Made by a program: the position numbers and the translations under genes. The notes below the pieces were generated by a model, which was not told the origin of the DNA, ran no database searches, and worked only from the letters and a program-made list of their open reading frames with translations. 38,553 nucleotides of DNA from a bacterium (lineage in GTDB: Bacteria; Calditrichota; Calditrichia; RBG-13-44-9; J042): NCBI GenBank assembly GCA_015485355.1, contig WFTQ01000086.1:1-38553 (forward strand). Reading direction: 5' to 3'. Each line of letters opens with the position of its first letter. Position 1 is the first letter of the stretch. This document shows positions 10,998 to 29,023 of the stretch, one piece after another.

Positions 10998-13121
10998 CTA
11001 CTGTTGCCGGCAGCCCGGAAAGAAAAACAGTCGTTTCAAAAAAAGCGCCTTGAGCAGGATTTCCACATCCAGCAACAGGGACTGATTCTTCATGTAAAAC
11101 AGATGATAACGTTCCATGTCTTCGGGTATTTGAACCTTTTCCCAGTTTAACTGTACCAGGCCGGTGATTCCGGGTCGGTACCAATATTCCGGATGCATCG
11201 CCAGGGTCGTTTCGGCGGGAAAAGGCGAACCCACAAAGGAGAGTTTCCCCCGCAAAATTTCCCAGATCAACAGCCAGCGATTGATCCATCGCCGGGGATT
11301 GAACTCATCCACCTGATGGATGACTCTCCGCCCTTCCGGACCCGGGTCGATCTCTACCCGGCGCAAACGATTCATCCGCAAAAGCAGGATCGGTAGGCCG
11401 ACCGGCAGGGTCATCAACAACACCAAAGCCGACAGTCCGACATCAAAACTCCTTTTGACGAAACGGTTAAAGGGGCGCCCGATGGCATAATCGATTTCCA
11501 GGAAGGGATAATCGTCCAGGCGCTCGATGGTGGACTTCCCGATCATAAACTCCGAGCTGGAAGGCACCATTTTAAACTCGACCCGGGCATCTCGAATACG
11601 GCTCATGGTGCCCAGAATCTGTTCGTAACTCAGCACATCGGTGGCAAAGATGACCTGACGGATGCGGTGGATGCGGATCAGGCCGTTGAGGTGGTCCAGT
11701 TTACCCAGAACGGGGACATCGTGGCGGTGTTGAAATTCATCGGAGTCCTTCACCAAGATCACCCCCAGCAACTCGTATCCGGGATCTCGCATATCCCGAA
11801 TCCGATGATACAGGCTGGCCACTCCCTGACCCTCGCCCACCAGTACCGTTGGTTTGCTGAACCAATCTCTTCCCCATGCGGAACGGTCTCCGCTATAGAA
11901 ACGCTTGAGTATGGCGCGCCAGCTAATCATGGCCAGAGGCGATAAAACCGCGGCGATCAATACCACCATGCGGGAAAAAGCAAACTGTTTTAAAAAAAAG
12001 GTCAAGGCCGCCAATAACAAAAAGGTTATGATGTTGGTCTTGATAATCTCCTGCACCGAGAAACGGTGATGCGGATATACCTGCAGATAAAAGGCGGTAC
12101 TTAAAAAAATCGCCGTGGATATGGCGTGGATCACCCAGTATCCCGCAAAAAAGTCTTCCCAGCGGAAACCATGCTTGAATTGCATGCGAACATAAAACGA
12201 GAATAAGATGACCAGATTCAAAAGGGCCCCATCTACCAGCAAAGGAAAGTGTTCTTGCACGAAATTTTTTATATAGACAAACACGCCCCGTAAAACGATG
12301 CCCAGCACAATCAGCCAACGAATAAAAAACACCGTTCGCTGGGCATAATATTTCTGAAAAAACTGATACAAGGCCTTGTTGAAGGTGACCACATAATCGA
12401 TGTTATTCTTTTTGGTGCTTTCCCCTTTATAATGGATGATCTGAGTATTGGGGACATAATAAATTTTATGCCCCGCCTGATTAATCCGATGGCAGAGGTC
12501 GATATCCTCGCAATACATGAAAAATTGTTCATCAAAATAACCCACTTCATCCAGCACTTTCTTTTTAATCATCATGAACGATCCGGATATGGCCGGAACG
12601 GTGTAGGTTTCGTCGGGATCGAGGTAGGTCAGGTTGTACTGTCCAAAGATCCGGCTTTTGGGGAACAGACGACTCAGTCCCACCACCTTCCAGAACGCAA
12701 TCATCGGTGTGGGTACGCTGTGACGGCAGTCGACGGAGAACGTTCCATCGGGATTAATGATTTTGCAGGTAGCGGCGCCGGCATCGGGATGCCGGCGAAA
12801 AAACTCCAGGAGACAGGTAAAAGTATCTTCCTGCACCACCGTATCGGGATTAATGATGACGACATATTCCCCTTGCACCCGTTTCAAGGCCAGATTATTG
12901 GCTCGGGCAAATCCCAGATTGACCGGACTTTCGATCAACTGCACCTCGGGGAACCGTTTGTTGAGGTAGGGCACACTGCCGTCCACCGAGGCGTTATCGA
13001 CCACGAAAATCTCGTGGGGGATGGTCCTCAGCGCCCGTTTCAGGGAAATTAATGCCTGCTCCAAATATTCCTTTACATTGTAATTGACAATGACGACCGA
13101 AATTTGCGGACGCTCAGCCAT
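10998..13121 (-). CDS. GT2 glycosyltransferase fused to degenerate WbaP-like domain
   Basis: 707 residues. Residues 1-270 are a GT-A family 2 transferase of the WbbL/rhamnosyltransferase type: SVVIVNYNVKEYL, VDNASVDGS, the NPDT metal motif (91-94) and EDIDLCHR (205-212). Residues about 290-410 hold several membrane helices. Residues 424-500 are a Rossmann-like CoA_binding_3 domain (PTVLVGEGQG). Residues 550-707 are a monotopic sugar-phosphate transferase domain (VKRSFDVGLSALVLL, ILRGKLSFVG, YRPGITGLVQL). The catalytic Asp-Glu pair expected in DELPQLW is replaced by Asn614-Arg615, and the KFRTM block is absent, so the phosphotransferase domain is probably inactive. It lies 9 bases after the 827-residue gene with an AAAGGAG site. 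Confidence 0.88.
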   Translation of the reverse strand: MAERPQISVVIVNYNVKEYLEQALISLKRALRTIPHEIFVVDNASVDGSVPYLNKRFPEVQLIESPVNLGFARANNLALKRVQGEYVVIINPDTVVQEDTFTCLLEFFRRHPDAGAATCKIINPDGTFSVDCRHSVPTPMIAFWKVVGLSRLFPKSRIFGQYNLTYLDPDETYTVPAISGSFMMIKKKVLDEVGYFDEQFFMYCEDIDLCHRINQAGHKIYYVPNTQIIHYKGESTKKNNIDYVVTFNKALYQFFQKYYAQRTVFFIRWLIVLGIVLRGVFVYIKNFVQEHFPLLVDGALLNLVILFSFYVRMQFKHGFRWEDFFAGYWVIHAISTAIFLSTAFYLQVYPHHRFSVQEIIKTNIITFLLLAALTFFLKQFAFSRMVVLIAAVLSPLAMISWRAILKRFYSGDRSAWGRDWFSKPTVLVGEGQGVASLYHRIRDMRDPGYELLGVILVKDSDEFQHRHDVPVLGKLDHLNGLIRIHRIRQVIFATDVLSYEQILGTMSRIRDARVEFKMVPSSSEFMIGKSTIERLDDYPFLEIDYAIGRPFNRFVKRSFDVGLSALVLLMTLPVGLPILLLRMNRLRRVEIDPGPEGRRVIHQVDEFNPRRWINRWLLIWEILRGKLSFVGSPFPAETTLAMHPEYWYRPGITGLVQLNWEKVQIPEDMERYHLFYMKNQSLLLDVEILLKALFLKRLFFFPGCRQQ

Positions 13122-13130
13122 AGGTCTCCT

Positions 13131-15614
13131 TTAAAACAGCTTTACCCGCCGCTGAATCAATAATAATAGACTGCGGATGATGATTTGCACGTCCAGACGC
13201 AGGGAGAGATTTTCGATATAATAGATATCGGACTTGATGCGTTCTTCCAGGTATTTTTGGCCGGACTCGTAGCGGTAGCGGACTTGTGCCAGACCGGTCA
13301 ATCCCGGTCGGACAAACAACCGTCGATGCAGGAACCGGAAACGCCGCTCGTTTCGCCGGTACCATTGGGGAGCTTCCGGCCGGGGCCCCACCACGCTCAT
13401 CTCCCCTTTTAAAATATTCCAAATTTGGGGGAATTTATAATACCGTGTTCGAAAGATGAATTTTCCCAGGGGCGACAATCGGGCGGCCCGACCTTCTCCA
13501 AAATAATATTTCTCGGGAATCTGGCGTCCCATGCGAAATACATACAGCCGAAACGGCTGCCCGAATTTTCCCAGAGCCGTCACCGCCGTAATGGGAAAAC
13601 GCTTGAACTGGAGAGAAATCAAAATCCAGGCCCCCACAACCAGGGGGATGTTTATAACCAGATTCACCAGGGCAAAAAGTATATCGAAGGCTCGTTTCAT
13701 GATCCATTGCCAGGGCACCATGCGTTCCGGGAATACCCGCGTCAGGGCATGATTATCCACCGCGGCCCGGGAGCCTGATAACAGATGATGCAACGCCGGG
13801 GTCGTCTTCATCACCACATGAAAGCGATCACAAATGCTGATGATGTTCATTAAATCCGTGCGGGAATTTTCCGGAACGGCGATAATGATCTCCTCGATCC
13901 CGTAGCGCTGAATCAGCACGGGTAAATCCCGATATTCCCCTAAAATAGGCACCCCTTCGAACTGATGCATCTTATCCCTTTTCTTGACCACAATACCTTT
14001 TACGTGGTAAAGCAGATGCGGATTGGTGCGAATATCTCGAAGCAGATTGCGGGCCTGACGGGTGGCACCAATGAGGAGCGTATTTTTCAGGGAGTACTCA
14101 AATATTTGTTTCCGTTTTTCCAGCTCAATGATGCCTAATCGGCCGCCGTTCACAAAAGCGACCATGCATAACCAGTAAAATCCCAGGGTGGTAAGTTGAG
14201 AGGCATTCAATGGGCTGGAGGGATCGGTCGTTAAAAACCCCACCAACACAATGCCGAAGGTAATGACCCGGCTAACGCGGATGGTCTTTTCGAAACGGCC
14301 GATATCCCAGGGCATACTGTAGAGTCCATTGAGCCAGAACAACAAGACCCACCCGATGGTAAAAAACAGAAAGACGGGGTCCATCAAATAATCCTGAAAG
14401 GCCCGGATGGTAAATTGGGCCACCCAACCGGACTGGAATTTAAACCAATAAGTAAAATACAGGGCGGCATTGACGGCGACAAGATCGGAAAGGAAAATGA
14501 AGACCTGATGCCAGAGGCGGTTGAGATGGAGAGGCGGAGCATGATTGGAGGCTGCGGAGAGGGAACCGGTATGGGGATACCTTCGATAGGCTTCCACATA
14601 TCCCAGACGTCGGGCCCAGTAGACGGCGGTAGCAAAAGTAATCAGAAAGAGAACATAACCGGTCACTTCCAGATAAATTACCATCAACACCCCCAGCACC
14701 ATGTAGAAAAAGGCCACCACGTATAAAAGCCACACGGTATGCAGGTGGGACAATCCCAGCTTCAGCAGGCGATGATGGACGTGCTCCTTGTCCGGTTTAA
14801 AAGGACTTTCCCCCCGTCCCAGACGCCGGAAAAAGGAAATCAGGGTATCGGTAACCGGCACACCCAGCAACACCAGCGATGCCAGAAAGTAAATTTGATG
14901 ACTTCGCGCCACCCGCAAAGACTCTATCGAAAAGAAGGCCAGAAGATATCCCAGTTGCAAGCTGCCCACGTCCCCCATAAAAATCTTTGCCGGATGATAA
15001 TTGAAACGTAAAAAGCCCAGCACCGCCCCGATGATGGAAACGGAAAGGATGACTAAGAACAGATCGCCCTGGAGATAAGAAATGATGGCAAAGCCGAGGA
15101 GCGCAATGAAAGCGATTCCCCCGGCCAGGCCATCGAGCCCATCCAACAAATTCAGGGCGTTGATGATGAAAATGATCCACAATACAGTAAAGGGATAGGC
15201 CAGCCATCCCAGGTTCAGGGTGGTGCCTCCGGGACTGACAAAAGCTTCGATCACACATCCCCCCTGCACAATCAGGGCCGCCGCCAGGAATTCCCCCAAA
15301 AACTTTTGCCAGGACGACAAACCCACCACATCGTCCAAAACGCCGGTAAAAACGATGACCATCCACCCCACAAAGAAAGAATAGTAGTTGACCCACTCCT
15401 GCCAGGGAAGCATATTCAATATTTTGGCCGACAATAAAGCTGCCAGAACGGCCAGAAAGATTCCGACTCCCCCCAAAACGGGCTTGAATTCTTGATGCAT
15501 GCTCCGGGCAGTGGGAAACGACCCGATACGGTACCGCGATGCCACCAGCCGACAACAATTGACCGCCGCCAAAGCGGTTACCAGAGATATGCCAAACAGA
15601 AGCACCAGGTTCAT
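13131..15614 (-). CDS. WecA-like transferase fused to degenerate WbaP-like domain
   Basis: 827 residues in one uninterrupted frame. Residues 1-335 are a polytopic polyprenyl-phosphate HexNAc-1-phosphate transferase (WecA/TagO/MraY family) with all key motifs: LDDVVGL (Asp94, Asp95), NALNLLDGLDGLAGG (Asp158, Asp161), FMGDVGSLQLG (Asp215) and EHVHHRLL (His278-281). Residues 365-490 add four more helices, 511-585 a Rossmann-like domain (TLLIGATRQARNLL), and 638-827 a monotopic WbaP-like domain (MKRAFDILFALV, WNILKGEMSVVGPRPE, RPGLTGLAQV). There the usual SLDELPQ reads RYYKFPQ, so the catalytic Asp-Glu is Tyr726-Lys727. The WecA-like half probably starts repeat-unit synthesis on undecaprenyl phosphate, and the other half is a likely pseudo-enzyme. 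Confidence 0.9.
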   Translation of the reverse strand: MNLVLLFGISLVTALAAVNCCRLVASRYRIGSFPTARSMHQEFKPVLGGVGIFLAVLAALLSAKILNMLPWQEWVNYYSFFVGWMVIVFTGVLDDVVGLSSWQKFLGEFLAAALIVQGGCVIEAFVSPGGTTLNLGWLAYPFTVLWIIFIINALNLLDGLDGLAGGIAFIALLGFAIISYLQGDLFLVILSVSIIGAVLGFLRFNYHPAKIFMGDVGSLQLGYLLAFFSIESLRVARSHQIYFLASLVLLGVPVTDTLISFFRRLGRGESPFKPDKEHVHHRLLKLGLSHLHTVWLLYVVAFFYMVLGVLMVIYLEVTGYVLFLITFATAVYWARRLGYVEAYRRYPHTGSLSAASNHAPPLHLNRLWHQVFIFLSDLVAVNAALYFTYWFKFQSGWVAQFTIRAFQDYLMDPVFLFFTIGWVLLFWLNGLYSMPWDIGRFEKTIRVSRVITFGIVLVGFLTTDPSSPLNASQLTTLGFYWLCMVAFVNGGRLGIIELEKRKQIFEYSLKNTLLIGATRQARNLLRDIRTNPHLLYHVKGIVVKKRDKMHQFEGVPILGEYRDLPVLIQRYGIEEIIIAVPENSRTDLMNIISICDRFHVVMKTTPALHHLLSGSRAAVDNHALTRVFPERMVPWQWIMKRAFDILFALVNLVINIPLVVGAWILISLQFKRFPITAVTALGKFGQPFRLYVFRMGRQIPEKYYFGEGRAARLSPLGKFIFRTRYYKFPQIWNILKGEMSVVGPRPEAPQWYRRNERRFRFLHRRLFVRPGLTGLAQVRYRYESGQKYLEERIKSDIYYIENLSLRLDVQIIIRSLLLLIQRRVKLF

Positions 15615-15805: not shown

Positions 15806-16285
15806 CTATTCGGTATCCAGCCGTTTTACCACCCGGGCCGGCACCCCGGCCACGACCGTGCGGGGCGGCACATCCTTTGTAACCACCGCCCCGGCGCCGA
15901 CAATGGCCCCTTCGCCGATGGTAACCCCGCATAAAATGGTGGCACTACTCCCGATGCTGGCGCCCTTGCGAACATAAGTGGGGATGCACACCCAATCCTC
16001 TTCGGCCTGCAGGCTGCCATCGGAATTGGTCGCCCGGGGATATTTATCGTTAATAAAGGTAACATTGTGGCCGATGAAACAATTATCCTCGATATGCACC
16101 CCCTCACAAATGAAAGTGTGGCTGGAGATTTTACAATTTCGGCCAACAGTAACGCCCTTCTGAATTTCTACAAATGTTCCGATTCGGGTATTATCACCAA
16201 TCTCGCAACCGTAAAGATTTACAAACGAGTAAATCTTCACATTCTTTCCCAACTTCACATCATCCGTAATGTTCACAAATCTCAT
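15806..16285 (-). CDS. Hexapeptide N-acetyltransferase, WlbB/WbpD-like
   Basis: 159 residues forming a left-handed beta-helix of hexapeptide repeats (VKLGKNVKIYSFVNLYG, CEIGDNTRIGTFVEIQ and so on to IVGAGAVVTKDVP). The insertion FINDKYPRATN near 77-87 is typical of the sugar 3-N-acetyltransferases WlbB/WbpD (UDP-GlcNAc3NA) and QdtC (dTDP-3-amino sugars). The oxidoreductase next door favours the UDP-diacetamido-uronate pathway. The start overlaps the oxidoreductase stop by four bases. The acetyl donor would be acetyl-CoA. The gene that would create its amino substrate, a DegT-type aminotransferase, is not in the window. Confidence 0.88.
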   Translation of the reverse strand: MRFVNITDDVKLGKNVKIYSFVNLYGCEIGDNTRIGTFVEIQKGVTVGRNCKISSHTFICEGVHIEDNCFIGHNVTFINDKYPRATNSDGSLQAEEDWVCIPTYVRKGASIGSSATILCGVTIGEGAIVGAGAVVTKDVPPRTVVAGVPARVVKRLDTE

Positions 16286-17319
16286 AATAAAACCTCCTTA
16301 CCACGATTTTTAATCGATTCTTCCGAAGCCTCTAAAATTCGTACGACCTGTAATCCCAACTCCCCCCCCGAAATGGGACTGGCCATACCGGTGATACAGT
16401 CCACAAAATGTTGCATTTCCACGGCCAGAGCCTCCGTCTGCGGAATTTTGGGGCTATACATATCCCCCGTTCGGTACTGGATCAGGGTATTATAAATCTG
16501 GTCGGTGGTTTGAATGACTTCGATGCCTTTGTCATACACCTTTACCTTTTCGCTGGGGGAATTGTCATCCCAAACAATCATTTTCTTGGTGCCGCTGATC
16601 AGCGTCCGGCGAATCTTCACCGGGGACAACCAGTTCACGTGGATATGAGCGATAAGCTTTGCCGGGTAATACACCGTCAGGTAGGCGACATCTTCCAGCC
16701 CGTTCCCCAGATGATCCGATCCAGTGGCCACTACAGCCTCCGGTGGAAGATCAATCACGTAGTTCATGATCGAAATATCATGGGGGGCAAGATCCCAGAG
16801 CACATTAATGTCATGCTGAAACAGCCCCAGATTCACCCGAACGGAGTCGAAGTAATACAAATCACCGATTTCCCCGACGCAGACCAGTTCTTTGATCTTT
16901 TGCACCGCACCGGTGAACAGGAAGGTATGATCGACCAGCAGGGTAAGGCCTTTCTGTTCGGCCAGATTAATCAACTCCTCCGCCTGGCGGGAAGTCGCGG
17001 CCATCGGTTTTTCAATTAGCACATGTTTTCCCGCCAGCAGAGCCTCCCGGGCCAGTTCAAAATGGGTAAACACCGGGGTACAAACGGCGATGGCCTCTAC
17101 CCGGGGATGGCGGATAACCTCTCGATAGTCTCGAGTGGTTTGAATGAAAGGATACAGCGATTGAATGTAGCGCAGCCGTTCGGGTTTCAAATCGGCGCAA
17201 ATGGGTACGCTGGTATTGGGATTCGCAACCAGGTTGCGTATGACATTGGGTCCCCAATATCCCACCCCGATCACACCAATCGAGATGTTGAGCTTTTCCT
17301 TTCCATGCTTCATAGCCAA
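16282..17319 (-). CDS. Gfo/Idh/MocA oxidoreductase, WlbA/WbpB-like
   Basis: 345 residues. The N-terminal Rossmann fold has GVIGVGYWGPNVIRNL. EKPMA (family lysine) follows at about 100, and a LAPHDISIMNY segment supplies the catalytic-type histidine. In the UDP-ManNAc3NAcA pathway WlbA/WbpB oxidises the C3 hydroxyl of UDP-GlcNAcA using NAD, before an aminotransferase and the WlbB acetyltransferase. The four-base overlap with the WlbB-like gene supports that pairing. Related family members act on other nucleotide sugars, so the substrate is inferred. The exact start is uncertain because two ATGs stand two codons apart. Confidence 0.88.
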   Translation of the reverse strand: MAMKHGKEKLNISIGVIGVGYWGPNVIRNLVANPNTSVPICADLKPERLRYIQSLYPFIQTTRDYREVIRHPRVEAIAVCTPVFTHFELAREALLAGKHVLIEKPMAATSRQAEELINLAEQKGLTLLVDHTFLFTGAVQKIKELVCVGEIGDLYYFDSVRVNLGLFQHDINVLWDLAPHDISIMNYVIDLPPEAVVATGSDHLGNGLEDVAYLTVYYPAKLIAHIHVNWLSPVKIRRTLISGTKKMIVWDDNSPSEKVKVYDKGIEVIQTTDQIYNTLIQYRTGDMYSPKIPQTEALAVEMQHFVDCITGMASPISGGELGLQVVRILEASEESIKNRGKEVLL

Positions 17320-17352
17320 TCCCTTAAGCGATCATCTTTTCATGAAAGGAAT

Positions 17353-18588
17353 TTATAGTTTTTCCTGAATAATCTTTAAATATTTCTCAGAAAGTTGATC
17401 TCTGTCAAAATACTTTTCAACGAATAGTCGGCCATTGCGCCCGAACTGTTTTCTGAGACCCTCATCACGGTATAATTTAAGTATCGCTTCTTGTAATTGT
17501 TGAACATTTTCGGGTTCCACGAAAATACCCGCACGGGCTTTGTCTACTACCAGTTCCCGCGCCTCTCCACACACACTGATAATTATGGGTTTGGCCATGG
17601 CCATAATCTCGAAGACCTTGGAAGGGATTACACTCTTGAAAAGAGGCAATTTCCGTAAGGGCACTAATACAACATCTGCCAGCTCATAATACGAGGGTAG
17701 TTCTTCCTTGGATATCTGATCGATGAAGATGACATTGGTTAATCCCATGTGTTGAACCTGATCCATCAAGCGCTCCTTTTCCGCCCCTTCACCCACGAAC
17801 AGAAATTGAATTTCGGGCATCCTTTTTAACCGCTTCGCACACCACAAGACATTATGTAATGCATGCGACAACCCATGGGTTCCGATATAAGCAATAACAA
17901 ACTTTCCTTTCAGGCCGAGCCGTTCCCGGAGACCACGCATTTCTTTTCCGGGCGTAAATAAAGACAAATCCACTCCGTTCTTGATCACAAAAATTTTACG
18001 GGCGGGAATCCCGCGAGAAGCGATAATATGCCTGGACGAATCGGACACGGTAATGATTGCCCGTGCCTTCCGATACAAGAACAATTCAATTTTCTCAAGC
18101 AATCGTATTATCACCCGGTTGTTTAATTGTCCCAGCTCGACGATGGATTGGGGCCACAGGTCCCGCACTTCGAACACGAATTGAGCCCCTTTGAGTCGAC
18201 TCAAAATGTATCCGGCGATTCCCACCAAAAATTGAGGACTGGTGGCAATCACCACATCAACCGGCCCCACTTTTCTTCCCCCGACCATTACCGCAGACAG
18301 CATGAAGGACAGATAATTCAATATGCGCTTACCAAACCCCTTGTTGGCGGCAGGAAAAATCATGGTCCGAACCACAGGAACACCCTCGATCACTTCTTTC
18401 ATCAACCATTTATGCCGATACGCCGGAGGGATAATTCCCGTGGGATGATTCGGGAAACCCGTCAATACCGTGACGGGCACACCCTTTTTAATCCAGTATC
18501 TGGAGGTCTCGAAAACCCGAGCGGAGGGCGCTCCCATCTCCGGAGGGAAATACTGGGATAAATACAGAATGTTGAATTTATAACCCAT
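17353..18588 (-). CDS. GT4 glycosyltransferase, WbuB-like
   Basis: 411 residues with the GT-B architecture of family 4. The N-terminal half opens with LYLSQYFPPEMGAPSARVFE, a signature of WbuB-type (fucosaminyl-type) transferases, and VFEVRDLWPQSIVELG (138-153) is typical of that subgroup. The C-terminal donor half has IAYIGTHGLSHAL, FVGEGAEKERL and SKVFEIMAMAKPII (323-336), the last containing the acidic nucleotide-sugar contact. It is predicted cytoplasmic, perhaps membrane-associated. It probably adds one amino-sugar to the lipid-linked repeat, but donor and linkage cannot be told from sequence. Confidence 0.9.
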   Translation of the reverse strand: MGYKFNILYLSQYFPPEMGAPSARVFETSRYWIKKGVPVTVLTGFPNHPTGIIPPAYRHKWLMKEVIEGVPVVRTMIFPAANKGFGKRILNYLSFMLSAVMVGGRKVGPVDVVIATSPQFLVGIAGYILSRLKGAQFVFEVRDLWPQSIVELGQLNNRVIIRLLEKIELFLYRKARAIITVSDSSRHIIASRGIPARKIFVIKNGVDLSLFTPGKEMRGLRERLGLKGKFVIAYIGTHGLSHALHNVLWCAKRLKRMPEIQFLFVGEGAEKERLMDQVQHMGLTNVIFIDQISKEELPSYYELADVVLVPLRKLPLFKSVIPSKVFEIMAMAKPIIISVCGEARELVVDKARAGIFVEPENVQQLQEAILKLYRDEGLRKQFGRNGRLFVEKYFDRDQLSEKYLKIIQEKL

Positions 18589-18641
18589 TTTCGAACCTTT
18601 GTGAAATCAGACGAATTTCCTATTCCCCAATGCCCATCCAA

Positions 18642-19799
18642 TTAACCGATTAATGCCTTGTAAGCTTCCAACAATTTTTTTTCTTCCGTATCCCAGGAAA
18701 AATATTTCCGGGCGTTTTCCATATTGAGCTTACTTATTCGCATCAGCCTATCGCGGTTTGAAACAAAATCGAATATAGCAGTAATTTCGTTTTTTATATT
18801 AAAAATGTCAACAGTCATGCCAAATTCAATGCGTCGATTTAGTTCCACCCAATCGGGGAAATTGCTGCACATAACCACTAAACCGTTCCCCATGTATTCG
18901 AATAACTTGGTGGGCAGGGTCTCCATGTAATTCCGGATTGGATGGAGAAACAAGATTCCGATATGGGCCTTTTGGACCAGGGCCATGGCCTTCGTGTGAT
19001 CAAGATAACCGTATAAAGTGATTTTTTCCTCCAATTGATTGAATCGGATGAAATCCTGAATACGCTTTTCGTAACCCTTATTGAAAATCGGTCCGATGAT
19101 GTGAAACCGACAATCGAATTTTGTATTCAAATATTTGATCAACAACAAGGCTTCGGTAATGCCTCGCTTTTCAGTAACCCCACCCACATAAACAAAATGT
19201 AAACACGATTCCATATCCCATGGCTTTTCTGCATAAGGCATTGCGGAGTGATTCAGAACATAATTCTGTATGATTGCGACGTTGGGATGTTGTCTATAAT
19301 ACCGTGTGTAGCCTGCTTCGGCCAGGATCAGCAAATCAATATGGGGTAACGATTTTTTTTCCAGGAACACATAAACCTTACTAAAAACATTTCGCAACAC
19401 TTTTGGAAGATAGTCTTTGTGAGAAATGGCGTCCGGATAATTTTCGTGAATATCATAAATCAATTTGCTTTTTCGGGTGAGGAAATATCGGAGAAAGGGC
19501 AGAAACACGGCCAGATCCGGATCATGAAAATGGTAAACATCCGCCTTGATTTTCAAGAAATAAAATCCAATTTTTACCAGACGAAGAATTCGGAAAACGA
19601 TACCCCCTCCCGCGTTCAGCCAGAGGAAACGAACATCTTCTTCCGGAACAGCGTTTTCTGTTTTTTTGACCACAAACCAAATTTCTGAATAACGCTTCTT
19701 TAAGGAATGGATCTCTTTATAAAATATGCGCACATCGTTGGGATGATGTTGTGACGTGATCACACAAATGCGTTTTTTTACTCTCATGTTCGATGTCAT
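18642..19799 (-). CDS. Glycosyltransferase, GT-B fold (GT4-like)
   Basis: 385 residues. N-terminal features are ICVITSQHHPNDVRIFYKE and VYHFHDPDLAVFLPFL with a following YDIHENYPD, as in several capsule transferases. The C-terminal half has FVYVGGVTEKRGI, FHIIGP and LPTKLFEYMGNGLVV (about 300-320), where the glutamate of LFEYM is the usual donor-site acid. An extended lysine-rich, A+T-rich composition distinguishes it from the housekeeping genes. It overlaps the upstream transferase by four bases (ATGA), so the two are coupled. The donor sugar is unknown. Confidence 0.88.
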   Translation of the reverse strand: MTSNMRVKKRICVITSQHHPNDVRIFYKEIHSLKKRYSEIWFVVKKTENAVPEEDVRFLWLNAGGGIVFRILRLVKIGFYFLKIKADVYHFHDPDLAVFLPFLRYFLTRKSKLIYDIHENYPDAISHKDYLPKVLRNVFSKVYVFLEKKSLPHIDLLILAEAGYTRYYRQHPNVAIIQNYVLNHSAMPYAEKPWDMESCLHFVYVGGVTEKRGITEALLLIKYLNTKFDCRFHIIGPIFNKGYEKRIQDFIRFNQLEEKITLYGYLDHTKAMALVQKAHIGILFLHPIRNYMETLPTKLFEYMGNGLVVMCSNFPDWVELNRRIEFGMTVDIFNIKNEITAIFDFVSNRDRLMRISKLNMENARKYFSWDTEEKKLLEAYKALIG

Positions 19800-21001
19800 A
19801 TCGCCGTTCTGGTGGTTAAGGCCTCTTTATAAAGTTTTACATATCGATTCACATTTTCTTCCCAGGTAAATTTCTCAAGAACCGTTTTTTTCGCATTGGC
19901 CTTTATGTGAGCCGTTGCGGTTTTACGCGAAAGAATTTTGTGGACGACATTCACAAAATCGCTGACATCATCTGGATCGACCAGATAACCATTCACGCCG
20001 TGCCGGATAATCTCTGCTATTCCTTCGTTCCTGGAACCAACGACTACTTTTCCAAAATACATCGCCTCTAAATAAACGATGCCGAAAGCCTCGTTCTTGC
20101 TCGGCAAAACAAACAAGTCGCAATCCCTAACATAGTTCAAAGCGATTTCTCTGGGTAATGCTCCTAAAAAGAATGTAAAGCCATCAACCCCTAATCTCTT
20201 GGCCAAATCATGAAAATAATCCCTATCTTCCCCGGAACCGATAATATAATAATACAAGTCCGGGAATCGCCGTTTCAAGATCGGCAAGGCTTGCAACACG
20301 GTTTTATAACCCTTCTGTTCAATGACTCGTCCAACCGAGAGCATTCGTATTGCCTTAGGATTGTTATCCCTCCACTGAACATTTGTGCGTAAAGAGGGAA
20401 TATGAACTCCATTGTAAATGACTTCAAGACGTTTAATACAAGGGGTCAAATTGTATTGATCCAATAATGATCGGAGTTTATGACTCACCACCCCCACAAA
20501 CGAAGCCTGTTTTAACACATGACGAATCCGATAATAATTCAACCGACTTCTGGGAATGCTTTTCAGCAAATCCGCCCCATGGACGGTCACCCCGAAGGGA
20601 ATTCCGTGAATCTTGCTTAAATACGAAGCCACCACCCCATCGGGTAAAACCACATGAGCATGAATTAAATCAATTTTAACACGCCCTAAGAACCGTTCAT
20701 AAAAAGAAAAGGCAGAAGCCCACATTAAATCGCCTCTTACGAAAAAAAACTTCAATTTGGGTATGGAAAAAAATCGCGGATAAAACACCTCCAGTTTGTG
20801 CAGGGGTAAAACCCGGGGAACTTGGTGATACCGGTACCAATCGCTTTTGCGGGAAATAAAAGGCGGAACGAAGGGAACGGGAGATACGACAAAGACTTTG
20901 TGCCCGGCTCTGGATAAATACGTACAAAAATCATAAACAAATATTCCATTTATGGGAAATACAGGGTTGGGAAACATGTGGGAATGGACCAAGATATTCA
21001 T
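19796..21001 (-). CDS. GT4 glycosyltransferase
   Basis: 401 residues with classical GT4 landmarks. The acceptor half has a glycine-containing loop (PVFPINGIFVYDF) and AHVVLPDGVVA with GVTVHGADL. The donor half has MLSVGRVIEQKGYKTVLQAL and the E-x7-E motif in SKNEAFGIVYLEAMYFGK (Glu304, Glu312), followed by GSRNEGIAEII. These residues bind the nucleotide-sugar donor in retaining GT4 enzymes. It lies 22 bases after the flippase gene and overlaps the next transferase. It should add one sugar to the lipid-linked repeat on the cytoplasmic face. Confidence 0.92.
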   Translation of the reverse strand: MNILVHSHMFPNPVFPINGIFVYDFCTYLSRAGHKVFVVSPVPFVPPFISRKSDWYRYHQVPRVLPLHKLEVFYPRFFSIPKLKFFFVRGDLMWASAFSFYERFLGRVKIDLIHAHVVLPDGVVASYLSKIHGIPFGVTVHGADLLKSIPRSRLNYYRIRHVLKQASFVGVVSHKLRSLLDQYNLTPCIKRLEVIYNGVHIPSLRTNVQWRDNNPKAIRMLSVGRVIEQKGYKTVLQALPILKRRFPDLYYYIIGSGEDRDYFHDLAKRLGVDGFTFFLGALPREIALNYVRDCDLFVLPSKNEAFGIVYLEAMYFGKVVVGSRNEGIAEIIRHGVNGYLVDPDDVSDFVNVVHKILSRKTATAHIKANAKKTVLEKFTWEENVNRYVKLYKEALTTRTAI

Positions 21002-21023
21002 TTCGCTTTTCCTTGACTAAAAG

Positions 21024-22460
21024 CTAATTCTTGTTCATTTTTGGTAAAAATTTTCTATAATACTGGACAATATCCGTCAATAAAAAGGTGTATAAGACAA
21101 ATCCCATGAGCTGGAAATATTTAAGATAGTGAGGATGCTGCAAAGGATAAACGAGTATCAACAATCCTAACGCCAGACGACCCATTAATCGAAAATTCCT
21201 TTTTGAAATGCTGATGGAGGATGATGACAGTATAATTATCAATAAACTTACGATGGCAACCCCCTGGGTAAAAGCATAACTGAAAATGGCCCCATTTAAT
21301 TGAAAACGGTTTACCAACAAGTAAGAGGAAACCACTAAAACAACACTTTTAATTCCCTCCAATGCGAGGAATTTTTTAAATTGATCGGAAGAAATCAAAA
21401 CAAATAGATAGAAAATGTAAACGGCATCGAAAAACTTTAAAAATAAAAACAAGTTTAAGGCGTGTTTCATCTTGACAAATTCGGTGTTATAAAACAGAAT
21501 TAAAAACAGATCCGGAAAAGCCATGATCAGCGCAACAATCGGATAGATGATATTCAGCAAAAATCTTAAATTATCATTGAGTACCTCCCGGAAATTGTTT
21601 TTGGCACTGCTTAAGGTGGGAAACAGATACACGGCAAAGGCCATAATCACAATATTCACGTATTGGGTGATAGACCAGACGGACTGAAAAAAACCATTAA
21701 CATTGAGGCCACCCAGTTGCACAATAATGGTACGAAAGACCACCAAAGATGAAAAGGCCAACACTTTTCGAGCTATATATATGGAACATAATTCCAGAAA
21801 TTTTAGGAATTGATCCTTTTTGATGTTCGCTTTTTTTTTAAACAACAAATGCCATTCGCTTTTTAGGTGCGTGAAGAAGATGATAAAGCTCACTATCCAG
21901 TAAAAATAGAGATTATAGATCACCCCCGTCATTCCAAACGCCCATACCAGCGGAACAATAGAGAGTACACCGAATATTGCGGCTAAATTTTGTCCCAATG
22001 CCAAAGCCTTAAATTGTTTTTTGGCACGGACGAGATTCTCCAATAAATAGGATAAAGAATAGACGGGTCCCAAACCGATTAAAAGAAGCAACAACCCCTG
22101 GAAACGTTCAGAACCAAACAGCAGGGTGGAAAAATAGGAGGCGAAGCACAAAAAAAAAGACACGAATAATAAATTGCTGACTATCAGGACATACAAGGAA
22201 AAACGTAAAATTGGAACCGTTTCGTGAGTCTCTTCTTTTATACTGATTTTTCCGCTTAATTGATGAACGATTAATGAAAATACACCGAAATCAATGATAT
22301 TTGATTGAAAGTTGTAGAAAGTAATTATTTGCCCTAAGATACCCACATGTTCAACTCCTAAGACAATGGAAACGAACTTGGCCCGAATAACACCGGTTAA
22401 ATTCCGCAATACGGCGGCGGTGTTAAAATAGACAATATACTTCACATGTTTTAAATTCAT
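21024..22460 (-). CDS. Wzx-type polysaccharide flippase
   Basis: 478 residues, almost entirely hydrophobic with about 12-14 predicted membrane helices, consistent with the MOP superfamily (Wzx, PST). The N-terminus KYIVYFNTAAVLRNLTGVIRAKF resembles the RxxTGVIRxK-like first helix of this class. Wzx moves undecaprenyl-diphosphate-linked repeats from the cytoplasmic to the periplasmic face. It lies 16 bases after the Wzy-like gene. The codon use is markedly A/T-ending with runs of A and T, unlike the flanking housekeeping genes, as is common for polymer-specific genes exchanged between strains. Confidence 0.88.
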   Translation of the reverse strand: MNLKHVKYIVYFNTAAVLRNLTGVIRAKFVSIVLGVEHVGILGQIITFYNFQSNIIDFGVFSLIVHQLSGKISIKEETHETVPILRFSLYVLIVSNLLFVSFFLCFASYFSTLLFGSERFQGLLLLLIGLGPVYSLSYLLENLVRAKKQFKALALGQNLAAIFGVLSIVPLVWAFGMTGVIYNLYFYWIVSFIIFFTHLKSEWHLLFKKKANIKKDQFLKFLELCSIYIARKVLAFSSLVVFRTIIVQLGGLNVNGFFQSVWSITQYVNIVIMAFAVYLFPTLSSAKNNFREVLNDNLRFLLNIIYPIVALIMAFPDLFLILFYNTEFVKMKHALNLFLFLKFFDAVYIFYLFVLISSDQFKKFLALEGIKSVVLVVSSYLLVNRFQLNGAIFSYAFTQGVAIVSLLIIILSSSSISISKRNFRLMGRLALGLLILVYPLQHPHYLKYFQLMGFVLYTFLLTDIVQYYRKFLPKMNKN

Positions 22461-22476
22461 ATGGGCAGTAATTCCA

Positions 22477-23883
22477 TTACTGGGGGTTCCACCTTAACCT
22501 TTGTAAGCAAAAAATTAAACTGATAATAATCCAGAAATTATTATCAAATAAACCGCCACCATAAAATTGATAAAATATCAAGTACGCCACAAAGGTAATC
22601 ACCAATGCACTCCCCATGGTGTATTCATCTTCCCGGACATGGGGGTGCTTCAATACCCCGATCCCTGTGGACAAAATCTTCCCGATGATCCATAAAAATA
22701 TCAGAAATCCTACAATTCCCAATTCCGCCAGAATGGTGTAAAATATATTGTGAGGTTCTACGACCCCCAGGGTATTCTGGGGTGGAATGATTTTGGGAAA
22801 CACGACGGGAAAGCCCCGAAAACCAACGCCCCATAAATAAGAATCAAAAAACATTTTAACGGCACCAATGCCCAGATAAATCCGTACCCGGGAAGACTCA
22901 TCAATTTCCCCGGTAAAAACCCCAAAAAACCGTTTTATCAGATTGAACAGAATGAATTGATAGTTGGGGAATAATAACAAGATCAACACTCCCAACAAAA
23001 ACAAAGCCACAATAACCTTCTTTTGCCGAAACCATATTGCCATCATGAGTAAAGACAAGGATATAGCAATCCAGCCACTTCGGGAATATGTAGAAATTAT
23101 CCCTAAAAACAATATGATAAACAAAATCGCTCCGATGATTCGTTTACTCCAATGGATCTTTCTGTTTAATGTAATCGATGCGGTTAAAAGAATGGGAAGA
23201 AAAAAATGCGTGGCGAATATGTTCGGGTCTTTCTGAACCCCGGTGGCCCTCGAAATAATTTTTTGACCCGAAGTTAGAAATCCCAACACAGCGGCTTCTT
23301 TGTTAAGCAGCCCCTCCTTTATTGAAACAATACTGAGTATAACGGATATAAACACCACAACTCCCAGAATGAATGTCAACTGTTGCTTTGTTCTGATCGT
23401 ATTGAGCAACAGATAAACCATTCCGATCAGAAAAAACAATCTTAAAGCATACAGAAGGCCTTCAGAACGGTTGGGGGAGTAAATAAGAGAGAATAAAATG
23501 AAAAGAAAAAAAAGAGACCATTCCATTTCGTGTCCTGTCAACCGTAAATGAAAATTTCGCGACAGAAAAAAATTCAATCCAAAAACAATAAAGGAAAGTA
23601 CTAAAAAGATTTGAAAAAGAGAAAAAGGGATAACGGCGTTTTGAAACAGGACGATGAAATACCCTAAGTACGAACCTATGGGAATCCAGACGACCATCAG
23701 GTAAGGATCTTTTAGAGAACCCAGAAGGTATAGCCCCAAAATCGCTGCAAAAAGTATGGCAATGATTCCCACAAAAAATGTTTCTTGCAGGATTGCGGGT
23801 ACAACAGCCAAGATCGCAAAGGATAATAAGTAAATGGTCTTATCGGTAAGTAACACCGGGATATATCGATACCGTTTTACCAT
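22477..23883 (-). CDS. O-antigen ligase/polymerase family protein (Wzy-like)
   Basis: 468 residues with about 12 hydrophobic segments and one long periplasmic loop toward the C-terminus that includes GVGFRGFPVVFPKI and VVEPHNIFYTILAELGIVGF. The PHNxFxxxLAELGixG block is the hallmark of the O-antigen ligase/polymerase domain (Wzy_C/PF04932 type). In a Wzx/Wzy system it joins lipid-linked repeats into a chain, with Wzz limiting length. Because no separate ligase or lipid A gene is near, polymerase is more likely than WaaL. It is A+T-rich like its neighbours. Confidence 0.88.
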   Translation of the reverse strand: MVKRYRYIPVLLTDKTIYLLSFAILAVVPAILQETFFVGIIAILFAAILGLYLLGSLKDPYLMVVWIPIGSYLGYFIVLFQNAVIPFSLFQIFLVLSFIVFGLNFFLSRNFHLRLTGHEMEWSLFFLFILFSLIYSPNRSEGLLYALRLFFLIGMVYLLLNTIRTKQQLTFILGVVVFISVILSIVSIKEGLLNKEAAVLGFLTSGQKIISRATGVQKDPNIFATHFFLPILLTASITLNRKIHWSKRIIGAILFIILFLGIISTYSRSGWIAISLSLLMMAIWFRQKKVIVALFLLGVLILLLFPNYQFILFNLIKRFFGVFTGEIDESSRVRIYLGIGAVKMFFDSYLWGVGFRGFPVVFPKIIPPQNTLGVVEPHNIFYTILAELGIVGFLIFLWIIGKILSTGIGVLKHPHVREDEYTMGSALVITFVAYLIFYQFYGGGLFDNNFWIIISLIFCLQRLRWNPQ

Positions 23884-23896
23884 TGCATTTTCAGCT

Positions 23897-25333
23897 TCAC
23901 TGATTTCGACCCAATTGCATAACGACTACATCCAACGGTTCAAGACGTTTGTTTACCGGGTGACCATTGACGTCACGGATGTAATAGGTGGTTGATTTAT
24001 CAGAATTTGCCAATATTAAGAACCGCTGCTCACTGTCCGTGGTTTTTATACAGAAATGCACTTTTTCCTGAAGGATACCGGAAGATTCTGTATTTCCCTC
24101 AAAAACGAACCGGTACCTTTTGATTTCCCTTAGAACATCCATTAACAATTGGAAATAGGTCCAGGAGGCCTCTTTTTTGGACCAAATCAATACTCCGGTA
24201 GCTCCATGAATCATCGAAAGGTAAATTTGACAACGGACGTTTTTAACGTAATCCGTTACCGATACATGTTTGGGTTTTGCCACCGCCGCACCATCAAAAA
24301 ACAACCACACGGGTTTATCTTGGCCACAGGCATCTTTGATGGCATTTACCACGATTGCAGCCGCTTCGGGATAACGAAAAAAGTCCGGGTAACTATTTAC
24401 GCTGAACACATCCGCGCTGCTATGGTAGAGCAACGCCGTCTGGAAGACGTTGTAATAATATTTTTCCCGAAACAACGGCCACGGTCGCGGTCGCCATGTG
24501 TTGCTGGTGGCGTCAAAATAGTAGAGAGAGGTTCCATCAGCGGCATAATTATAAGTATATAATTTTTCCGGATCGCCCTCCAATTGCTCCGGATGAATGC
24601 CGGAGGGTAAGTGTTCGGGCAATCGGGAGAAAGTCTTTGCGTGAATCAGTTCGTAATTGAACCGATCTCCTTTTAAGGAACCAAAAAGATCCAGTAAAAT
24701 CACCTTTCCCGGACTTCGGCGTCTCACTTCCTGAGCATACTTAAAAACGATCGCCGGGTGCCAGGCCCAATTTTGAAACCCTGTATTGGGTTCATCCATC
24801 AGAAACCAGATAAAATTAAAAGGGGCAAAACGTTGTAGTACGGGCTCAACGATCTGATTGCCGATGTAGTCCTTGTAATAGGTTTCGATATTGTCCTTCA
24901 CAAACCGCATCTCCCTGTAATCGATATGGCCGCTTCCATCCTTATCCGGGGTGTACAGGGAATCTCCCACGAAACGTTTCACCATTCTCCATTGGAAGAA
25001 ATCCCATCCGGTCATCAACACGGATTCGGCCATGTAGCTCTGTTCTCTTCCAAATTGGCAGTAGATCAGATTGAATAATTCCGCCATTTGTTTAAATCTT
25101 GCGATATTTGCCGAATCCGTGTCTACTTGAGACAATTTGGCCTCATACCCGGGTATGCCCCAAAGGCCCAGGGCCAAAAATTTCTCTCCATCCTTATAGA
25201 CCCATCCCTGTTTAACCGACCACTCGGGAGGTTCAGGATCATCCCCGGGCTTGAACCCATAAAGCAGCAATATACCGGTTAGTAAACCCATCCAAATGAG
25301 TCTCAAGGGTGCCTCGATTTTCGAAACGGCCAA
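23897..25333 (-). CDS. Secreted glycoside-hydrolase-like protein with EF-hand loop
   Basis: 478 residues. The start is a TTG at 25333 with GAGG five bases upstream; it overlaps the Wzz gene by 31 bases. An in-frame ATG at 25291 has no site. A signal or anchor helix (about 12-26) exports it. The body looks like a clan-A TIM barrel: FIWFLMDEPNTG (Glu181 where a general acid would sit), DVFSVNSYPDFF, KPVWLFFDG and HGATGVLIWS. An extra segment at 130-141, DKDGSGHIDYRE, is a complete 12-residue EF-hand calcium loop. The usual nucleophile Glu after KPVW is not evident (Asp347 is nearby), so activity is uncertain. A polymer-trimming role is inferred from the operon. Confidence 0.7.
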   Translation of the reverse strand: MAVSKIEAPLRLIWMGLLTGILLLYGFKPGDDPEPPEWSVKQGWVYKDGEKFLALGLWGIPGYEAKLSQVDTDSANIARFKQMAELFNLIYCQFGREQSYMAESVLMTGWDFFQWRMVKRFVGDSLYTPDKDGSGHIDYREMRFVKDNIETYYKDYIGNQIVEPVLQRFAPFNFIWFLMDEPNTGFQNWAWHPAIVFKYAQEVRRRSPGKVILLDLFGSLKGDRFNYELIHAKTFSRLPEHLPSGIHPEQLEGDPEKLYTYNYAADGTSLYYFDATSNTWRPRPWPLFREKYYYNVFQTALLYHSSADVFSVNSYPDFFRYPEAAAIVVNAIKDACGQDKPVWLFFDGAAVAKPKHVSVTDYVKNVRCQIYLSMIHGATGVLIWSKKEASWTYFQLLMDVLREIKRYRFVFEGNTESSGILQEKVHFCIKTTDSEQRFLILANSDKSTTYYIRDVNGHPVNKRLEPLDVVVMQLGRNQ

Positions 25334-26511
25334 TCTTTCCTCAACGACGCCGATATTCTGCTTAAATATTGATAATTCTGGCTATTCTTGCGCTTTTCAC
25401 TTTCGTAAAAATCTTTAACGAACACCACAAACAGGGCAAAGAAAATACCGAAGGTTAATCCGGCCAGCACAATATATATCCGTTTGGGTTTATACTTATA
25501 TGTCGGTACTTTTGCGGGATCCAGGATTTGGATTCCCTGGGACTGCATCTCTACCTGCAAACGCATTTGCTCGTATTGAGGATAAACAAATTCATATATC
25601 TTATTTTGAACCGTTACTTCACGAAACAACTTGGCATATTGGAGGGCTAATTCGGGCATTTTTTCCAACGGCTGGAAAAATTCATTCTCGGTTCCCTCCA
25701 CCTCCCGGAGCATTTCCGCATACTGCTTTTTAATGGCATTTCTTTGATTGATCAACTGTAAGTATTGAGGATTATCCCGGGAAACGGTATTCTTTAAAAT
25801 TTCCAATTGAATTTCCGTCTGGACCAACTGAGCCTTTAACTCCGCCACCTGTTTTATCAACTCTTCCATTTGGGTTTCTATTTGAAAAACACCAAAACGT
25901 TGTTGAAAATTTTTAAAGTTGAGTTCGGCATTCTGCAATTCTTTTACATTTTCCCGATATCGTTTCTCGATTATCTTGTATGTATAATAGGCCCGTTCTT
26001 TATTGAGCTGTTTAAGAATAGAATCCAATTGATGAATGTAATATTCGGTGACGGCTTCGGCCCGCTCGGGATTTTCGTCAATAAAAGAAAATTCCACTGC
26101 AATCAGGGGATTAAAACCGAAGCCTCCTTCCCGGATTTCGTGGATTTCAATATTGGATGCTAACTGTTTTAACAATATTTCCATCTTATCATTGCCATAA
26201 ATTTCGGCAAAATTAAATTTGCGAATGACCCGCTCCATCAACGAGCGGCTCCGAAGAATCACTAAAATGGCTTCCGGGTTGATCTCCTGGGTGGTGACTG
26301 TGGGTTGAAATAATCCCCCTAAGAATCCGGGAAACCCCGCGCCCTGACGAGGGGGCGGAAAAAATCTTACGGTGCTTTTATAACTTTTGGGCCAGACCAG
26401 ACTGATGATCAAACTCAACAAGGTAATCGATAAAACAATTTTAATGATCAACCATCTATTTTCGACTAACTTTAGTAATACCGCCAGCAAATTCACATCC
26501 TTCTGATTCAT
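25303..26511 (-). CDS. Wzz/chain-length determinant protein
   Basis: 402 residues. A short cytoplasmic N-terminus precedes a first helix (LIIKIVLSITLLSLIISLVW, about 16-35), a Wzz-type region (SYKSTVRFFPP), a long periplasmic part with strong coiled coil (about 160-265, many Glu, Gln, Lys), and a second helix (IYIVLAGLTFGIFFALFVVFV) near the C-terminus. This is the co-polymerase topology that sets chain length with Wzy. The C-terminal tail is only about 40 residues and lacks Walker motifs or tyrosine clusters, so there is no Wzc-type kinase in this protein. It lies between the export protein and the hydrolase-like gene. Confidence 0.93.
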   Translation of the reverse strand: MNQKDVNLLAVLLKLVENRWLIIKIVLSITLLSLIISLVWPKSYKSTVRFFPPPRQGAGFPGFLGGLFQPTVTTQEINPEAILVILRSRSLMERVIRKFNFAEIYGNDKMEILLKQLASNIEIHEIREGGFGFNPLIAVEFSFIDENPERAEAVTEYYIHQLDSILKQLNKERAYYTYKIIEKRYRENVKELQNAELNFKNFQQRFGVFQIETQMEELIKQVAELKAQLVQTEIQLEILKNTVSRDNPQYLQLINQRNAIKKQYAEMLREVEGTENEFFQPLEKMPELALQYAKLFREVTVQNKIYEFVYPQYEQMRLQVEMQSQGIQILDPAKVPTYKYKPKRIYIVLAGLTFGIFFALFVVFVKDFYESEKRKNSQNYQYLSRISASLRKDWPFRKSRHP

Positions 26512-26527
26512 CGGCCCTTCCTTACCA

Positions 26528-27745
26528 TTATCGAGATGTTTGAATTAAGGCAAAAACGCTGATCGCCATGCTCACAACAGGCATAAGGATCGCCATATAA
26601 TCTTTCACAATTTCCCGATTTCTTCGGGGGACAATGACGATATCTCCCTTTTCAACGATCACATGAGGGCCTTTTTCCACCCGGCCCGTCCGGGAGTGGA
26701 TGACGGTGAGGTGGTCCAGGCTTTTTGCTGTTTCCAGCACCCCGGCAAAACCGGCGTAATCCAAGGCCGTGTAATTGGCCAAATATGGATAGGGACCCGG
26801 TTGGGTCACTTCTCCTCTTACATAAACCATTTCCCGCGTGGAGGGGATAATGATTCGATCTTTGGTCTGCAATTTTTCGACCCGTGCAGGGGAGTTGCTT
26901 TCCAACAAATTGTAAAATTTTTTCTGATTCCCCCGGATCAGGACAATGCTTTCAATGTCCGACCGGCGGTTGATGGCCTGCAAACGCGTCAAGAAGGCAT
27001 ACAGGGTTTCTTGAGGACGAATCTGGTAGATTCCCTGGGAGCCCACATTTCCTTCAATGATGACATAACTTCCCTGCAGATCAATCGGGGGAACGTATAT
27101 GATATCGCCTCCCTGCAAGTAGGGATTTTCTTTCAGGTTGCCGGTTAAATAAAAATCGCTGATGTTGATGGTATCGACCCGGCCATCGTAATGGCGCAGC
27201 TGGATTCGGGTATCGTCCCCCCAATTGGTTAATCCACCCGCCAACTGGATGGCATCGCTCACCCGATCCGACGCCCTTAAGTAATAAGTGCCGGGTTCCG
27301 CTATCTCCCCCACCACAAACACTTTGAATTTGCGGAGTCGCAGCAATCGCACCGCAAATCGGGAGTTCTTGAAATGTTGGGCCAGCAGCGCCCGGATCTT
27401 CCGGCCGGCGCCGGCCAGCGTCTCGTTGGCTACATAAATCTGGGACATCCCGGGGATGACCAGAAACCCTTCCGGGGTAACTTCGCTGACAAATTGGGCC
27501 TCCATGACTCCCCAGACCTTCAAAAGCAATTGATCTCCAGGTCCCAGTATATAGGCGGTGGAATCGATCTGCCGCTCCAGGGCCTGCTCCAGGAATTGGC
27601 GTTGGGGAATGATCTGTTCGTTGGTTCTTTCCAGTTGCCGTAAATCGATGTCAAACACCTTGGCCCGCTCCTGGGTGGTTTGAACCTGCTGAGCCAGCAG
27701 TACGCCGGTAAACATCAGGATCCATATGCTGAATCGAGCCTTCAT
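26528..27745 (-). CDS. SLBB-domain polysaccharide export protein (Wza-like)
   Basis: 405 residues. A signal peptide (IWILMFTGVLLAQQ) is followed by the polysaccharide export domain (YILGPGDQLLLKVWG, about 65-79) and two or three SLBB repeats (FVVGEIAEPGTYYLR near 144; VYVRGEVTQPGPYPY near 308). A final hydrophobic helix (AILMPVVSMAISVFALI) closes the protein. There is no lipobox cysteine, unlike E. coli Wza. The C-terminal helix may be what crosses the outer membrane. The ATG directly follows the wecB stop (TAAATG) and has GAGGGGGG upstream. It should form the periplasm-spanning export channel with the Wzz protein. Confidence 0.92.
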   Translation of the reverse strand: MKARFSIWILMFTGVLLAQQVQTTQERAKVFDIDLRQLERTNEQIIPQRQFLEQALERQIDSTAYILGPGDQLLLKVWGVMEAQFVSEVTPEGFLVIPGMSQIYVANETLAGAGRKIRALLAQHFKNSRFAVRLLRLRKFKVFVVGEIAEPGTYYLRASDRVSDAIQLAGGLTNWGDDTRIQLRHYDGRVDTINISDFYLTGNLKENPYLQGGDIIYVPPIDLQGSYVIIEGNVGSQGIYQIRPQETLYAFLTRLQAINRRSDIESIVLIRGNQKKFYNLLESNSPARVEKLQTKDRIIIPSTREMVYVRGEVTQPGPYPYLANYTALDYAGFAGVLETAKSLDHLTVIHSRTGRVEKGPHVIVEKGDIVIVPRRNREIVKDYMAILMPVVSMAISVFALIQTSR

Positions 27746-28840: not shown

Positions 28841-28868
28841 GGAATCCTCGATAAAATTACAAGTGCAA

Positions 28869-28897
28869 AATTTACACCGGGGCCTCATATATCGCAA
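28869..28897 (-). promoter_or_regulatory. Promoter of the exopolysaccharide operon
   Basis: On the minus strand TTGCGA (28897-28892), a 17-base spacer and TAAATT (28874-28869) lie 28 bases before the wecB ATG. The resulting leader would be about 20 bases and contain the GAGGA ribosome site. All downstream genes to 10998 are on the same strand with small gaps, so this may drive the whole operon. Confidence 0.6.
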
Positions 28898-29023
28898 GGT
28901 ATAAATCATCTTGCGCGGTTGGGAGTCTGTGTTCAACTTGATCGTGCAAACAGACGTTTGCCCAATGGAAGACGGGCTTTGGGAGGACCAACGAAGGCCT
29001 CTGTCCCGGGGTGAAAAGGGAGG

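Follow-up and report, generated by a model that had tools for sequence, protein, structure and literature searches.

The closest described relatives of the gene pair analysed here, W and G, are the Lg-PGTs of the WbaP/WcaJ/CpsE type (8t53, TIGR03025), the large monotopic kind of phosphoglycosyltransferase (PGT). WbaP is a homodimer whose interface is formed by a beta-hairpin of its DUF, the crossover hairpin Asn251-Gln268, and by the transmembrane (TM) bundle, with the PGT domains facing away from it (PMC10942596). W and G share with these enzymes the TM bundle, the CoA_binding_3 DUF, the crossover hairpin, the re-entrant helix, and the Bac_transf fold, but both lack the Asp-Glu dyad together with further active-site residues and carry another catalytic domain at the N terminus; both also fall below the curated TIGR03025 cut-off (239 bits for W and 160 for G vs. 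295.6). The N-terminal domain of W (residues 1-340) resembles the WecA/MraY polytopic PGTs (PF00953, TIGR02380, PDB 4j72) in its DD, NxxNLxDGxDGLA, and HxHH motifs, while, unlike them, W is fused to an Lg-PGT and reaches only 146.8 bits with TIGR02380, against the ECA WecA cut-off of 326. Residues 1-260 of G show the GT2 fold and the conserved acidic residues of WbbL-like GT2 enzymes and rhamnosyltransferases (TIGR01556, PF00535), but the TIGR01556 score is 45.6 against a cut-off of 200.6, and G is fused to a pseudo-Lg-PGT.

The individual domains are of known kinds, and fusions of monoPGTs with extra domains are known as well. In the bifunctional monoPGTs (Bi-PGTs), as far as the survey of the monoPGT superfamily is cited in PMC10942596, extra enzyme domains are attached to a monoPGT; there, however, the monoPGT is described as the catalytic core, whereas in W and G it is the dead part. 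In Myxococcus xanthus a partner protein, EpsW, has been proposed to bind the Lg-PGT scaffold of EpsZ in a hetero-complex, but EpsW is a response regulator unrelated to Lg-PGTs, while EpsZ is catalytic and lacks the hairpin (PMC12802240). In the open-access literature, neither a catalytically dead yet conserved Lg-PGT nor a GT2-pseudo-Lg-PGT family nor a fusion of a polytopic with a monotopic PGT was found described. To our knowledge, dimers of the WbaP type have so far been known only as homodimers.

Organization of the locus and of the two genes

In the window (the whole stretch of 38,553 nucleotides that was analysed, from a Calditrichota genome), W (13131..15614, 827 amino acids) and G (10998..13121, 707 amino acids) both lie in frame on the minus strand, as do all their features given below, and are separated by 9 bases, W ending with a TAA stop. 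Upstream of them and in the same direction there is a polysaccharide cluster (15806..28936, minus strand; Pfam), comprising genes for a hexapeptide-repeat transferase, a GFO/IDH oxidoreductase, three GT-B transferases, Wzy, a Wzz-like protein, an SLBB export protein, and a UDP-GlcNAc 2-epimerase. Two further ORFs of the cluster, each of 478 amino acids (21024-22460 and 23897-25333), have no Pfam match and are candidates for a flippase or for other membrane steps. The host genome has three PF02397 (Bac_transf) matches: W, G, and a third one on another contig.

G consists of a GT2 transferase and a non-catalytic Lg-PGT module. The GT2 domain (residues 1-260; 12342..13121) is recognised by Pfam (PF00535, E 1.9e-21, residues 8-193) and by its fold (6p61, Z 24.6 over 184 residues, rmsd 1.8; VIA-align), and its acidic residues D42, D93, E205, and D206 are invariant in 26 of 26 G proteins. 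The VIA-align rows cover essentially this domain only, the assignment of the tail being based on Foldseek and on sequence profiles. In the AlphaFold2 model of G (49 rows; pLDDT 86.6, pTM 0.73), WbaP 8t53 is the second Foldseek hit (E 2.3e-12, 429 columns) among top rows that are otherwise GT2 folds, and the predicted fold matches WbaP across the tail. The latter begins with a TM helix bundle of the Lg-PGT type (residues 285-410; 11892..12269; model and 8t53 alignment), made of four helices (292-316, 321-345, 356-376, and 384-408) and followed by a Rossmann fold, the CoA_binding_3 DUF (residues 411-540; 11502..11891; E 2.5e-18, match at residues 352-520). The DUF ends with a beta-hairpin (residues 512-540; 11502..11588) which, by the 8t53 alignment, the model, and its conservation, occupies the position of the domain-crossover hairpin of WbaP (PMC10942596). 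Then comes the re-entrant membrane helix (residues 546-582; 11376..11486; model and alignment columns), spanning residues 550-581 in the model. Its KR..D residues (K556, R557, and D560) are invariant in 26 of 26 G proteins, as is Asp685, the equivalent of PglC D168, an Asp stabilising the re-entrant helix (D168 named in PMC12802240).

What is missing from G is the middle of the Bac_transf domain. The Pfam match, at E 7e-12 not a chance one, covers the second half only (profile positions 94-174 of 179, residues 619-693). In the profile alignment to WbaP 8t53, 'LDELPQLFNVLKGDMSLVG' stands opposite the Asn614-Arg615 stretch, which places these two residues (11277..11282) at the catalytic Asp-Glu dyad. 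Both columns are free to vary among the 26 G proteins (R/N/S/T at 614 and F/R/I/G at 615). The KFRTM stretch is absent, while the C-terminal part (residues 622-692; 11046..11258; Pfam and conservation) is kept in register with WbaP, with ILRGKLSFVG starting at residue 622, RPGITGLVQL at 649, and KNQSLLLD following. The first-pass annotation, which described G as an N-terminal GT2 domain followed by a WbaP-like module with Asn614-Arg615 at the DELPQ position, KFRTM lost, and the two later motifs retained, was accurate in all these points.

W joins a WecA-type polytopic PGT to a full-length Lg-PGT devoid of the dyad. The WecA/MraY-like domain (residues 1-340; 14595..15614; PF00953, E 8.1e-42) has all the catalytic Asp motifs and HxHH, the columns of the three motifs being invariant in 31 of 31 W proteins. 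The Lg-PGT part, whose profile aligns to residues 64-524 of WbaP 8t53, comprises the TM bundle and the DUF (residues 365-630, with the hairpin at 602-630; 13725..14522; Pfam and 8t53 profile alignment; CoA_binding_3, E 1.1e-6) and a monotopic PGT domain (residues 634-820; 13155..13715; Bac_transf, E 3.4e-40, profile positions 1-176 of 179) that is complete yet inactivated. At the Asp-Glu dyad there is Tyr-Lys (residues 726-727; 13434..13439; alignment to PglC), with Y in 30 of the 31 aligned W relatives and K likewise in 30 of 31. The equivalents of PglC K59 and R88 are also lost, the former being variable (N/L/V) and the latter mostly Y/F, while all 31 proteins have the GPRP Arg, the structural Asp D808 (equivalent of PglC D168), and, in the re-entrant helix, KR..D. 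The near-invariance of Tyr and Lys and the invariant GPRP Arg could be taken to mean that this domain is no pseudoenzyme but has been re-engineered into an active enzyme that uses a different dyad; such a reading is hardly credible given the variable replacements of K59 and R88 and the WecA domain in the same chain, which retains all its motifs. The two tails had been described as being of the same type, which holds for the lack of the dyad but not for their extent, as W retains the whole Bac_transf domain with its active-site residues swapped, while G has lost the domain middle.

Conservation and co-occurrence of W and G

Near full-length homologues of G are found throughout the Calditrichota class, with 46-86% identity. 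All 31 Calditrichota contigs on which both genes occur have W and G side by side on the same strand, with W first; the gap is below 100 bp in 29 of the 31, and overlaps of 1-4 bases are frequent. Both tails are under purifying selection, with omega of about 0.05-0.15 where dS is usable, many dS values being saturated. For the G tail, omega is 0.148 at dS 0.33 (L066/L008) and 0.074 at dS 2.0 (L073/L083), and for the W tail 0.088 at dS 0.39 and 0.045 at dS 1.4. The G tail evolves faster than the GT2 domain in most of the pairs compared. Random decay into pseudogenes is excluded by these values together with the conservation across phyla described below, in agreement with the first-pass annotation, which had argued against such decay from the lack of the dyad in two neighbouring genes and had proposed the dN/dS of the tails and the co-occurrence of the two fusions as checks.

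It is worth mentioning that one genome (G034) has two W-G pairs (L072 and L073), of which the L073 pair is near-identical to a pair from another family (L075), suggesting transfer or bin contamination. Three Calditrichota loci (L317:835-2820(+), L318, and L319) encode a further Bac_transf protein of about 660 amino acids with DELPQ intact and GARP or GVRP in place of GPRP, and at L320:989-2794(+) an intact-dyad Bac_transf domain apparently stands, by eye, behind an N terminus resembling a sugar nucleotidyltransferase.

The best-conserved stretch of the G tail is the hairpin, with a mean major-residue frequency of 0.72, vs. 0.66 for the C-terminal PGT block, the Rossmann part of the DUF reaching 0.51; in W the hairpin and the remaining DUF are about equally conserved (0.62 vs. 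0.61). The pattern in G bears on a regulatory role of the tails, in which the DUF would sense UMP/UDP or UDP-sugars and throttle the domain fused to it, WecA or GT2, in the way that has been proposed for WbaP. Uridine nucleotides are ligands of the WbaP DUF, and UMP inhibits the full-length protein (PMC10942596), and a CoA_binding_3 domain is present in both G and W. However, the part expected to do the sensing is the least conserved of the three, and sensing alone does not explain the retention of the PGT remnant. Such a role is quite improbable as the reason for keeping the tails, though it is compatible with a pairing of the two scaffolds.

G is also associated with an Lg-PGT outside Calditrichota. 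In the class containing the Ignavibacteriaceae locus L121 (referred to as Ignavibacteria-type), a G-profile search gave matches in 183 of 197 genomes. In 36 of the 40 neighbourhoods fetched, G has an upstream Lg-PGT gene of the same orientation at a distance of 685-2476 bp, 1-2 genes away; as two of the four exceptions stop at a contig edge, this makes 36 of 38 testable loci. All 37 partner Lg-PGTs of this class have an intact Asp-Glu dyad. The genes lying between the two, in the neighbourhoods examined, code for a polyprenyl-phosphate hexose synthase-like protein (an AglJ/PpgS-like GT2) and often for a sugar aminotransferase. Directly after G in these neighbourhoods there is accA, coding for the acetyl-CoA carboxylase alpha subunit (L230:10222-11172 and equivalents), an odd neighbour for a polysaccharide gene.

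In Bacteroidia, G is 640-690 amino acids long, with a tail more degenerate still, and is found in 100 of 119 genomes. Of these genomes, 96 have G together with a same-clade Lg-PGT and 13 have neither, while four carry G alone and six the Lg-PGT alone (Fisher p 7e-10, with no correction for phylogeny or for the completeness of the assemblies); some of the discordant genomes may be incomplete assemblies. No Lg-PGT or WecA gene was seen near G in the Bacteroidia loci examined, the genes being mostly unlinked. The co-occurrence that the first-pass annotation named as a check is thus found, for W and G as direct neighbours in Calditrichota, for G and a nearby active Lg-PGT in Ignavibacteria-type genomes, and as shared presence in Bacteroidia. 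Of the three observations which that annotation would have taken as refuting, two, unconstrained evolution of the tails and lack of co-occurrence elsewhere, were looked for, and neither refuted it.

Two distant G-like proteins from outside the class (L101:4255-6003(-) and L102:5226-6854(-)) stop just past the DUF hairpin and have the TM bundle, DUF, and hairpin without any PGT remnant. They bear on the idea of a cradle, in which the degenerate PGT domain in G, and likewise in W, binds the polyprenyl-diphosphate-linked sugar uncleaved and offers it to the GT2 site. The conserved re-entrant helix and C-terminal YKPGLTG...KNQS..LD block would fit such a function, but the cradle is dispensable in L101 and L102, the dyad is gone from both proteins, and W has in addition lost the K59 and R88 equivalents, all of which makes it a very unlikely explanation.

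Probable order of fusion and dyad loss

A WecA-Lg-PGT fusion with both the DE dyad and the WecA motifs intact is present in 6 of 294 Ignavibacteria-type genomes (W-profile search plus locus L227). These proteins (L227:11620-14103(-), L255, L257, L258, L259, and L260) combine a polytopic and a monotopic initiating transferase in one chain, each with its catalytic set complete, and, judging from the motifs, might possibly act as two-substrate initiators. In the tree, the Calditrichota W tails group with the intact-dyad fusions in one clade (SH-aLRT 100), whose sister group is made up of the active Lg-PGT partners (97); the G tails form a separate group. After Bacteroidia Lg-PGTs had been added, each of the eight Bacteroidia genomes with G (8/8) contributed one Lg-PGT to this wider clade (99). 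By its position in the tree, the W tail is the orthologue of the active Lg-PGT partner of Ignavibacteria-type genomes.

The G tails are a single clade, non-catalytic in Calditrichota, Ignavibacteria-type genomes, and Bacteroidota, while the loss of the dyad from W is confined to Calditrichota. Because intact-dyad WecA fusions exist, and from the tree placement, the dyads are judged to have been lost separately, early in G and in W after the fusion with WecA; the independent loss claimed in the first-pass annotation was borne out. A single common loss for both genes is excluded by the same tree and fusions. On the simplest reading of these sequences, the starting point would have been an active Lg-PGT partnered by a GT2-pseudo-Lg-PGT; WecA would then have been fused onto the Lg-PGT with both active sites intact, as in the six genomes, and finally Calditrichota would have lost the old Lg-PGT dyad while keeping the scaffold. 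The W tail was thus kept once its own chemistry had become redundant.

This retention weighs against the tails being membrane anchors only, in which case the TM bundle and the re-entrant helix would seat the catalytic domains on the inner leaflet, W and G would form separate homodimers, and the gene pairing would reflect pathway order. WbaP is indeed homodimeric (PMC10942596), the retained re-entrant helix and D685 could serve membrane seating, and genes of the same pathway often cluster. Yet pathway linkage leaves unexplained both the keeping of a whole W tail after the takeover by WecA and the fact that the partner of G always comes from a single Lg-PGT clade; moreover, WecA has its own TM helices, which makes an anchor superfluous. 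Anchoring alone is therefore considered unlikely.

Proposed pairing of the two scaffolds

With moderate confidence, the best explanation for the keeping of both tails after the loss of their chemistry is hetero-oligomerisation of W and G in the manner of the WbaP homodimer. The evolutionary data support this idea well, while physical contact is a matter of prediction. The two proteins would together make up a single assembly unit in the membrane, each contributing a catalytic domain, the GT2 in G and the WecA-type initiating transferase in W, set on a non-catalytic Lg-PGT scaffold. The scaffolds would pair like the two chains of WbaP, through the TM bundle and the crossover beta-hairpin of the DUF, and the pairing would hold the maker of the first lipid-linked sugar beside the GT2 adding the second one. 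We thus infer heterodimerisation, a proximity-coupled transfer, and an order of the enzymes; more speculatively, the lipid-linked intermediate might be channelled between W and G, as the first-pass annotation had suggested. The types of the domains and their position by a Wzy/Wzz-type cluster holding a UDP-GlcNAc 2-epimerase suggest that WecA acts before G.

The first-rank conservation of the hairpin in G and the ends of L101 and L102 just past it suggest that the kept elements are the dimer surfaces of WbaP, formed by TM bundle, DUF, and hairpin. The first-pass annotation, in which the two tails may form a hetero-oligomer, had focused on the degenerate PGT domains; as the PGT domains of WbaP face away from the interface (PMC10942596), the interacting parts would rather be the hairpin and the TM bundle. 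An AlphaFold model of the W tail joined to G (a read-through translation of W residues 360-827 and G, aligned with unjoined relatives) reached pLDDT 71 and pTM 0.47 on a 14-row unpaired alignment, with no confident packing. Counting against the pairing are the unlinked genes of Bacteroidia, the genomes of that class having only one of the two, and the W hairpin, which is not extra-conserved. Either scaffold could homodimerise instead.

A broader reading, held tentatively and at somewhat short of even chances, is that a hetero-complex of an Lg-PGT and a GT2-pseudo-Lg-PGT is ancient and core to surface-glycan assembly in Bacteroidota and Calditrichota. Calditrichota would have exchanged its monotopic PGT engine for a polytopic PGT, unrelated to it and fused in cis, the dead original being kept as a scaffold, and the first two sugars would be added within one hetero-oligomer.

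For annotation, the consequence is that most of the sampled genomes of two large classes have a match to a 'polyprenyl glycosylphosphotransferase' model in a protein without the residues for the reaction. As for the biology, both partner enzymes have kept a dead PGT scaffold across phyla and in hundreds of genomes, and the live chemistry has been swapped between unrelated PGT superfamilies without the scaffold being discarded. For the question of whether the membrane enzymes that build glycans operate in organised complexes, W and G, together with a natural intermediate in which both sites are intact, provide a defined system that makes complex formation and the hand-over of the lipid-linked sugar directly testable.
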